From positions 1-64,000 of the forward strand of contig JACUUV010000006.1 of NCBI GenBank assembly GCA_014859095.1: a DNA stretch of 64,000 nt, written 5' to 3'. Shown one piece after another: positions 20,737-23,837 of this stretch (position 1 is the stretch's first letter; each line of letters starts with the position of its first letter). The notes under the pieces are model-generated. The model had not been told where the DNA came from and did not search any database. It was given only the letters and a program-made list of their open reading frames with translations. A program made the position numbers and the translations under genes. Origin of the DNA: Clostridia bacterium (GTDB lineage Bacteria; Bacillota; Clostridia; Peptostreptococcales; Acidaminobacteraceae).

Positions 20737-20784
20737 AAATAAGAAGGATTTGGCAGAGAAACTGCCAAATCCTTCTTATTTTTT
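20735..20784. terminator. Two-way terminator between convergent genes
   Basis: A 22-bp perfect stem (20735-20756 with 20762-20783, loop AGAAA) with A and T runs on both sides. It serves the plus-strand secreted protein and the minus-strand kce, whose stop codon lies in it. Confidence 0.93.
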
Positions 20785-21592
20785 ACATCCCTAGTATAGC
20801 TCTAGCCTCATCCGGTGTTGCGACTTCTCTACCAACTTCCTTAGCGATGCGGACAATTCGTTCCACAAGCTGGGCATTTGAAGTTGCAAGTTCACCTTTG
20901 CCATAATAGACGTTGTCCTCAAAACCAACTCTGACATGTCCACCGAGTACGATGGCCATAACAGCGAGTGGCAATTCGCTTCTACCGATCCCCGCTACGG
21001 TCCAAGTGGAACCGGCAGGCAACTGAGCGATCATGAACATGAGATCTTCAGGTGTTCCCGGACATGCTCCAGGCACTCCAAGCACCAGGTCAAAATGAAG
21101 TGGTGCCTTGACCAAACCCTTTTTGACCAATTTCTTGGCATTTTCGATCATACCACGTTCGAACACTTCAATTTCAGGTTTGACACCGTGATCGAGCATA
21201 CGCTTTGCAAATTTCTCCATATATTCTTCCGTATTCATGAACACATCGGGACCAAAATTGCATGTGCCCGCACTGAGTGTCGCCATTTCCGGCTTGAGTT
21301 CGACAGGCTGAAGTCTTTCTTCTGGTGTGTGCCATACGGCTCCTCCTGTAGAGGGTTGAAAAATGATATTGCATTTTGATTCAATGCTTTCCTTGATTGC
21401 GCGGTAAGCTTCAATATCCTGCGTCGGATCGCCTTTTGCGTCTCTCGCATGGACATGCACTATAGACGCGCCCGCTTTATAACATTCATATGCCGCTACT
21501 CCGATTTCTTCGGCTGTCAGTGGCAAATTAGGTTGTTGTTCCCTTGTGACTTCCGCTCCGGTGAGCGCTGCGGTGATGATCAATTTATCCAT
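20783..21592 (-). CDS. kce: 3-keto-5-aminohexanoate cleavage enzyme (BKACE family)
   Basis: 269 residues. It condenses 3-keto-5-aminohexanoate with acetyl-CoA to give acetoacetate and 3-aminobutyryl-CoA in lysine fermentation. The zinc histidines are His46 and His48 in VHVHARD, with the family acidic ligand probably Glu225 in VGFEDN. Glu14 is in the position thought to hold the substrate amine in the characterised Kce. The BKACE family has many substrates, but the adjacent kal gene makes this one likely. It follows kal by 22 bases on the minus strand. Confidence 0.88.
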   Translation of the reverse strand: MDKLIITAALTGAEVTREQQPNLPLTAEEIGVAAYECYKAGASIVHVHARDAKGDPTQDIEAYRAIKESIESKCNIIFQPSTGGAVWHTPEERLQPVELKPEMATLSAGTCNFGPDVFMNTEEYMEKFAKRMLDHGVKPEIEVFERGMIENAKKLVKKGLVKAPLHFDLVLGVPGACPGTPEDLMFMIAQLPAGSTWTVAGIGRSELPLAVMAIVLGGHVRVGFEDNVYYGKGELATSNAQLVERIVRIAKEVGREVATPDEARAILGM

Positions 21593-21614
21593 TCCGGACC
21601 TCCAAATTCAATCG

Positions 21615-22004
21615 CTATTTGTTTCTTTGCTTGTTTTTAGGAACCACACAGGTTCCTACCGCTCTACAAACAACAATCGGTTCTTCGAGCACGTCACATG
21701 CGGACTCATTGATGTCCGGTCTTGGAACGATCACTTTTCTTGCTTCGAAAGTCATTTTTCGAGAGCTGTTTCCCAACTTGGTGATTTCACCAACAGCTTC
21801 GATATAATCTCCTGCATAAACAGGTGCCAAAAATTCGACACTCTCATAAGCGGCAAAAAGACCCTCATCGCCATCTTGACGAATCAATAGTTCTGTTGCC
21901 ACATCGCCAAACAGGTTGAGCATTTTTGCGCCATCCACCAGGTTGCCGCCGTAATGGGCGTCATGCATGCTCATTCGCATTCTAATCATAGCTTTTTCTG
22001 ACAT
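21615..22004 (-). CDS. kal: 3-aminobutyryl-CoA ammonia-lyase
   Basis: 129 residues, hot-dog fold. It removes ammonia from L-3-aminobutyryl-CoA to give crotonyl-CoA, the step after Kce. Recognised from [19 protein letters not shown], the [11 protein letters not shown] strand, and the kce neighbour. GGAGGG ribosome site. The other lysine-pathway genes (kamA, kamDE, kdd) are not in this window, so the pair may stand apart from the main cluster. Confidence 0.9.
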
Positions 22005-22073: not shown

Positions 22074-23678
<1,605 letters not shown>

Positions 23679-23691
23679 TCAAAAAAACGCC

Positions 23692-23743
23692 CAAAAATAA
23701 AAAAAGAGTGAGAAAGCTCCCAAAAGGATGACTGACCACTCTT
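23692..23743 (-). terminator. Leader terminator (attenuator) of pyrG
   Basis: On the minus strand AAGAGTG (23743-23737) pairs with CACTCTT (23710-23704), followed by a T-rich run down to 23692. It stands between the pyrG promoter and its start codon, so it must be bypassed for expression. Confidence 0.8.
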
Positions 23744-23785
23744 GTTCTAAGGTTCTAGTTGCCACCCCACAGGGTGATACTGACC
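23731..23785 (-). promoter_or_regulatory. Possible antiterminator switch in the pyrG leader
   Basis: Hairpin 1 (23751-23785) pairs GGTCAGT with ACTAGAACC around a CACCC/GGGTG core. A second copy of GGTCAGT (23737-23731) lies inside the terminator region and could pair with the same ACTAGAACC, leaving the 5' arm of the terminator in the loop. Hairpin 1 and terminator together, or the alternative pairing, would exclude each other. The ligand or protein is unknown. Confidence 0.55.
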
Positions 23786-23808: not shown

Positions 23809-23837
23809 ATTATATCCACATTGACAAACCGAGTCAA
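23809..23837 (-). promoter_or_regulatory. SigA promoter of pyrG
   Basis: TTGACT (23832-23837), exactly 17 bases, then TATAAT (23809-23814) on the minus strand. The predicted start near 23802 gives a leader of about 135 bases. It does not begin with the GGGC run used in Bacillus pyrG attenuation. Confidence 0.88.

Follow-up and report, generated by a model that had tools for sequence, protein, structure and literature searches.

In one order of Clostridia, the gene for CTP synthase (pyrG) is preceded by a conserved leader that, judged from its sequence, forms a switch between termination of transcription and read-through. The leader carries four arms (A-B-C-D), which can pair as A:B (the first hairpin), as C:D (the terminator) or as B:C (the antiterminator), and the probability that they act as a transcription attenuator with competing arms, controlling read-through into pyrG, is put at about 0.6. 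CTP synthase catalyzes formation of the last pyrimidine nucleotide, and for Gram-positive bacteria the textbook account of its control is built on the GGGC start of Bacillus. The clostridia of this order lack such a start but have retained a different switch in front of pyrG. Since this switch is conserved at pyrG, it very probably adjusts CTP production by a route other than the Bacillus one.

Organization of the pyrG leader

The leader was first noticed in a 64-kb stretch of clostridial DNA, the whole of which is referred to here as the window. On its minus strand, a strong promoter is followed by a leader of ~135 nt and then by pyrG, with the four arms and a U-tract lying between promoter and gene (Table 1). 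Upon re-reading of the sequence, the coordinates and letters that an initial annotation had given for the leader elements proved correct, and so did its statement that a good promoter lies ahead of pyrG. According to a comparison of leaders, most relatives have a G at the position 7 nt past the -10 element, with UAUU or UUAUU next to it. Most leaders of this kind conserve these first transcribed bases (GUAUU or GUUAUU; window about 23802-23790, minus strand), and some pyrG promoters of the order that have no switch also begin with GUU. Immediately following pyrG in the same orientation (window 20783-22004, minus strand) are two lysine-fermentation genes, encoding 3-aminobutyryl-CoA ammonia lyase and 3-keto-5-aminohexanoate cleavage enzyme.

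Table 1. Positions of the promoter, the leader elements and pyrG in the window.
Feature	Position	Strand	Basis or remark
Promoter TTGACT-N17-TATAAT	23809..23837	-	TTGACT 23837-23832, TATAAT 23814-23809; 11/12 consensus matches
Predicted transcription start (G)	23802	-	7 nt past -10
Arm A, GGTCAGTATCACCC	23772..23785	-	CCC invariant in 41 aligned leaders
First GGTCAGT	23785-23779	-	Sequence
Arm B, GGGTGGCAACTAGAACC; partner is A or C	23751..23767	-	Pairing tests and covariation
GGGTG of antiterminator anchor	23767-23763	-	Sequence
ACTAGAACC	23759-23751	-	Sequence
Terminator	about 23741-23706	-	C:D stem, followed by T7
Arm C, GAGTGGTCAGTCATCC; 5' arm of terminator and 3' arm of antiterminator	23726..23741	-	Pairing tests and covariation
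Second GGTCAGT	23737-23731	-	Sequence
CATCC of antiterminator anchor	23730-23726	-	Sequence
Arm D, GGGAGCTTTCTCACTC; 3' arm of terminator	23706..23721	-	Pairing test and covariation
U-tract of terminator (T7)	23699..23705	-	Sequence
pyrG (CTP synthase), gene governed by the leader	22074..23666	-	NF003792, E=7e-264

Taken alone, the window leader is unremarkable: its fold shows no significance (z = -1.4), and a strict scan for terminators called none, presumably because the C:D stem is bulged. The significance of the leader therefore rests on its relatives.

Distribution among relatives

Upstream regions of pyrG were taken from relatives, and the layout was first sought by pattern. This revealed the four arms in 51 relatives' regions (one of which is the same contig counted twice), most commonly in the form GCACCC-loop-GGGTGCCCTGCC-spacer-GGTAGGTCACCC-loop-GGGTGACCTCTCACTTTTTTT. 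With an alignment of 41 leaders and a covariance model, 345 genomes of the same GTDB order were then searched, of which 65 gave a match above 35 bits, one per genome. In 63 of the 65, pyrG follows shortly after the match; of the other two genomes, G014 has the leader and pyrG at two contig ends, and G095 has the leader and no pyrG. In the class and phylum samples outside the order, no match exceeded 33 bits and none was convincing. The matches of 27-33 bits found there, which have no pyrG nearby, were rejected as instances of the switch and look like terminators with a single hairpin of GCACCC-GGGTGC type.

The window leader itself scores 61.5 bits with a model that includes it (R1), and its genome holds one strong copy. 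A second model (R2), built without any sequence from the window's own family, recovers the leaders of that family (from E=3e-11 down), and its sole match in the 64-kb window is the pyrG leader (17 bits, E=0.032). Together with the pairing tests described below, the comparison of sequences shows the predicted arms to be mutually exclusive, conserved and linked to pyrG, and the switch so predicted is conserved before pyrG across one clostridial order.

Several departures from this pattern were also observed. The leader of the genome in which no pyrG was found (L187; G095:C29:124200-126200) is intact at 78.5 bits, and the ORF that follows it presumably encodes an MBOAT acyltransferase, a name given from reading the translation. 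In L050, from a relative with a complete genome, the pyrG leader seems to retain nothing but the terminator hairpin (TTAGGTCGCCC...GGCGGCCTAAC). Many genomes of the order (e.g., G042, G048, G073, and G089), including near-complete ones and a single-contig genome of 4.3 Mb, gave no CTP synthase (PF06418) in a search that was positive in 14/14 control genomes.

Pairings under selection

The antiterminator and the terminator both covary. In B:C, 89% of cells are paired and 21 double changes occur vs. 10.3 in shuffles, with 0/500 shuffles as high, and sliding the arms out of register lowers the paired fraction to 34-54%. In C:D, 86% of cells are paired and 13 double changes occur vs. 5.0 in shuffles, again with 0/500 as high; as the leaders are related by descent, the shuffle counts for both pairings are not to be read as probabilities. 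A:B is paired in 91% of cells and is nearly invariant, which is why its covariation is weak. An alignment-free test on 23 dereplicated leaders compared cognate with non-cognate duplexes, and each arm prefers its own partner over a foreign one in A:B (p=0.02), B:C (p=6e-4), and C:D (p<1e-4). The negative control, A:D, gave p=0.97 in this test and a covariation count that 192/500 shuffles equaled or exceeded. An alternative ON fold, in which A:D closes around B:C, lies within 2 kcal/mol in 17/47 leaders, yet it has no comparative support and was for that reason left out. RNAalifold, applied to the whole alignment, returned part of A:B only, as is expected of folds that are mutually exclusive.

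Individual leaders illustrate these constraints. For instance, L052 has a telling paired variant, GGGTGGCTGCCTAA with TTAGCAGACCATCC, and in L196 arms A and B are altered together (GCATCC, GGATG). Family f3, on the other hand, counts against the switch explanation, as its terminator forms a perfect stem of 12 bp and its B:C pairing is weak. The initial annotation had described a complete layout of mutually exclusive terminator and antiterminator at pyrG and had proposed to look for conservation of the pairing in related pyrG leaders; this comparison has now been made, and the idea survived it in 63 genomes of the order, with covariation in B:C and C:D and a preference for cognate pairing.

The antiterminator had been annotated as GGTCAGT paired with ACTAGAACC. 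That B and C pair is upheld, but the pairing is longer than claimed and is anchored by GGGTG:CATCC, and beyond this anchor the register in relatives differs from GGTCAGT:ACTAGAACC. Members of the window's family (e.g., L005 and L009) conserve an antiterminator made of GGGUGGCUA and UAGUCAUCC, in register with the order-wide GGGUG:CAYCC. Both registers are possible in the window itself, where GGGUGGC:GUCAUCC plus ACUA:UGGU amounts to -10.8 kcal/mol. The duplication of GGTCAGT, which had been presented as a feature of the switch, does not stand as such: the exact repeat is species-specific, and two congeners differ from it (GGTTAGT then GGTCAGT in L003; GGTTAGT then GGTCGGT in L004). The repeat is a by-product of the requirement that two arms pair with the same partner.

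Proposed mechanism of the switch

If A:B forms together with C:D, transcription would stop at the terminator; if B:C forms, RNA polymerase would reach pyrG. In the commonest form of the leader, the 3' tail of B (CCUGCC) is free in A:B and offers a possible toehold, which could pair with the portion of C that is transcribed first (GGUAGG) and allow branch migration to displace A. Terminated transcripts would dominate when CTP is plentiful, and more read-through would occur when it is short. This direction (termination at high CTP and read-through at low CTP) is quite probable, given the gene served and the known regulation of pyrG.

Free-energy estimates suggest where the decision falls. With the polymerase at the end of C, B:C and A:B are about even (median -0.7 kcal/mol, B:C being favored in 24/47 leaders; in the window leader, A:B is favored by 2.5 kcal/mol), and once D has been made, the terminated state is favored in 32/47 leaders. 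The outcome therefore hinges on events between C and the U-tract. As the terminated state is the thermodynamic default in most leaders, some influence is needed to release arm B.

The favored, though tentative, candidate for the sensor is RNA polymerase itself, which may slow at C-runs when CTP is scarce. At low CTP, the polymerase would slow at the C-runs of the arms and B would have time to capture C, while the C-poor transcript before arm A would let synthesis proceed there at normal speed. The composition of the leaders fits such a polymerase-speed sensor: the C content is 6.5% before arm A vs. 12.6% after the terminator (Wilcoxon p=6e-6), the post-terminator stretch of the same leaders being the control for composition, and the first C-runs of the transcript lie in the arms. 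However, the C-poor stretch could serve to prevent mispairing with the G-rich arms, and a slow polymerase could equally favor the more stable terminated state. It is somewhat doubtful that the leader is a nucleotide sensor devoid of aptamer, protein and ribosome, in which the speed of the polymerase over C-runs decides a folding race and CTP is gauged in the course of elongation instead of at the start site. If CTP is sensed in this manner, an RNA of ~60 nt would be enough to serve as a nucleotide sensor; if a protein or ligand is involved, the switch would depend on that further partner. The natural variants found across the order make either idea amenable to a simple transcription assay.

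Alternative explanations

A protein bound to arm A or to the A:B hairpin, either CTP synthase itself or another nucleotide-sensing RNA-binding protein, might set the balance instead. Arms A and B are nearly invariant (CACCC...GGGUG), beyond what pairing needs, and a factor that frees B would be useful where the default energy favors termination. The invariance is also explained by the need of B for two partners, and such a protein is regarded as unlikely. PyrR itself looks an improbable candidate: a search of the window's genome for the PyrR RNA family (RF00515) gave weak but gene-appropriate matches, below gathering score, upstream of pyrB and of carA (L235 and L236), and the pyrG leader is absent from its matches. 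Control of UMP synthesis thus appears to be separate from that of pyrG.

A riboswitch, in which a small ligand (CTP, UTP, or other) binds the leader RNA and stabilizes one fold, would account for the strict tie to one metabolic gene, the strong sequence conservation and the terminator platform. Nevertheless, no conserved unpaired nucleotides occur in the 41 leaders, whose loops and spacers vary freely in length and sequence, and the shortest members (L045, L034, and L039; about 60 nt) consist of the four arms and loops of 3-7 nt only, which leaves no room for an ordinary aptamer. Searches of the window and of the pyrG loci of 20 relatives with Rfam 15, T-box included, gave no match at gathering score, in agreement with the initial annotation, which had recognized no T-box, PyrR or riboswitch family; a rerun at E<=10 produced nothing relevant. 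A riboswitch is improbable.

It is more improbable still that the leader holds a plain terminator, which lowers pyrG transcription with no regulated switching. The terminated fold is more stable in most leaders and the fold of the single sequence is unremarkable, as this explanation would have it, yet it makes arm B superfluous, and B:C covaries and prefers its cognate pairing.

Leader-peptide attenuation, in which arm B would be released by a ribosome sitting on arm A, shares its pairing logic with trp-type attenuators but is largely excluded, as no conserved short ORF over arm A was found in the pyrG leaders: many lack any ORF that starts ahead of arm A and spans it, the ORFs that exist vary in frame, length and context, and some leaders have only 9-10 nt ahead of the CCC of arm A. 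The mechanism of Bacillus subtilis pyrG, reiterative transcription from a GGGC start, concerns the same gene and the same CTP logic but is hardly credible here, since GGGC occurs at the predicted start in 0/52 leaders, most of which begin with GUAUU, GUUAU or GUUGU. The initial annotation, too, had set the leader apart from the Bacillus type. The check works, as GGGC follows a -10-like site, by a looser pattern, in 52/80 pyrG loci of other Firmicutes.

Comparison with known systems

A 2024 survey by Narunsky et al. (PMC11109978) names a "pyrG motif", shown in its Supplementary Figure S5, as an example of an RNA whose mode of action is not readily predicted. This motif is named after the same gene and may be the same RNA as the clostridial leader; if the two are identical, the RNA has already been described. 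The PyrR-type pyr attenuators (RF00515) likewise place pyrimidine genes under terminator/antiterminator control, and the pyrG leader differs from them in sequence and structure.

In topology, the leader is a classical 1:2, 2:3, 3:4 attenuator, identical in its four arms to those of the trp and similar operons: 1:2 and 3:4 are exclusive with 2:3, and a U-tract follows 3:4. Unlike trp-type attenuators, the clostridial leader has no conserved leader peptide over arm 1. The pyrG attenuator of B. subtilis operates through CTP-sensitive reiterative transcription (Meng et al., 2004, as cited in PMC4448216). The clostridial leader resembles it in having a terminator in the leader, a presumed CTP logic and no need for a known protein or riboswitch. 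In contrast to B. subtilis, it does not start with GGGC, and the strand that forms its antiterminator is a templated arm rather than added G residues.
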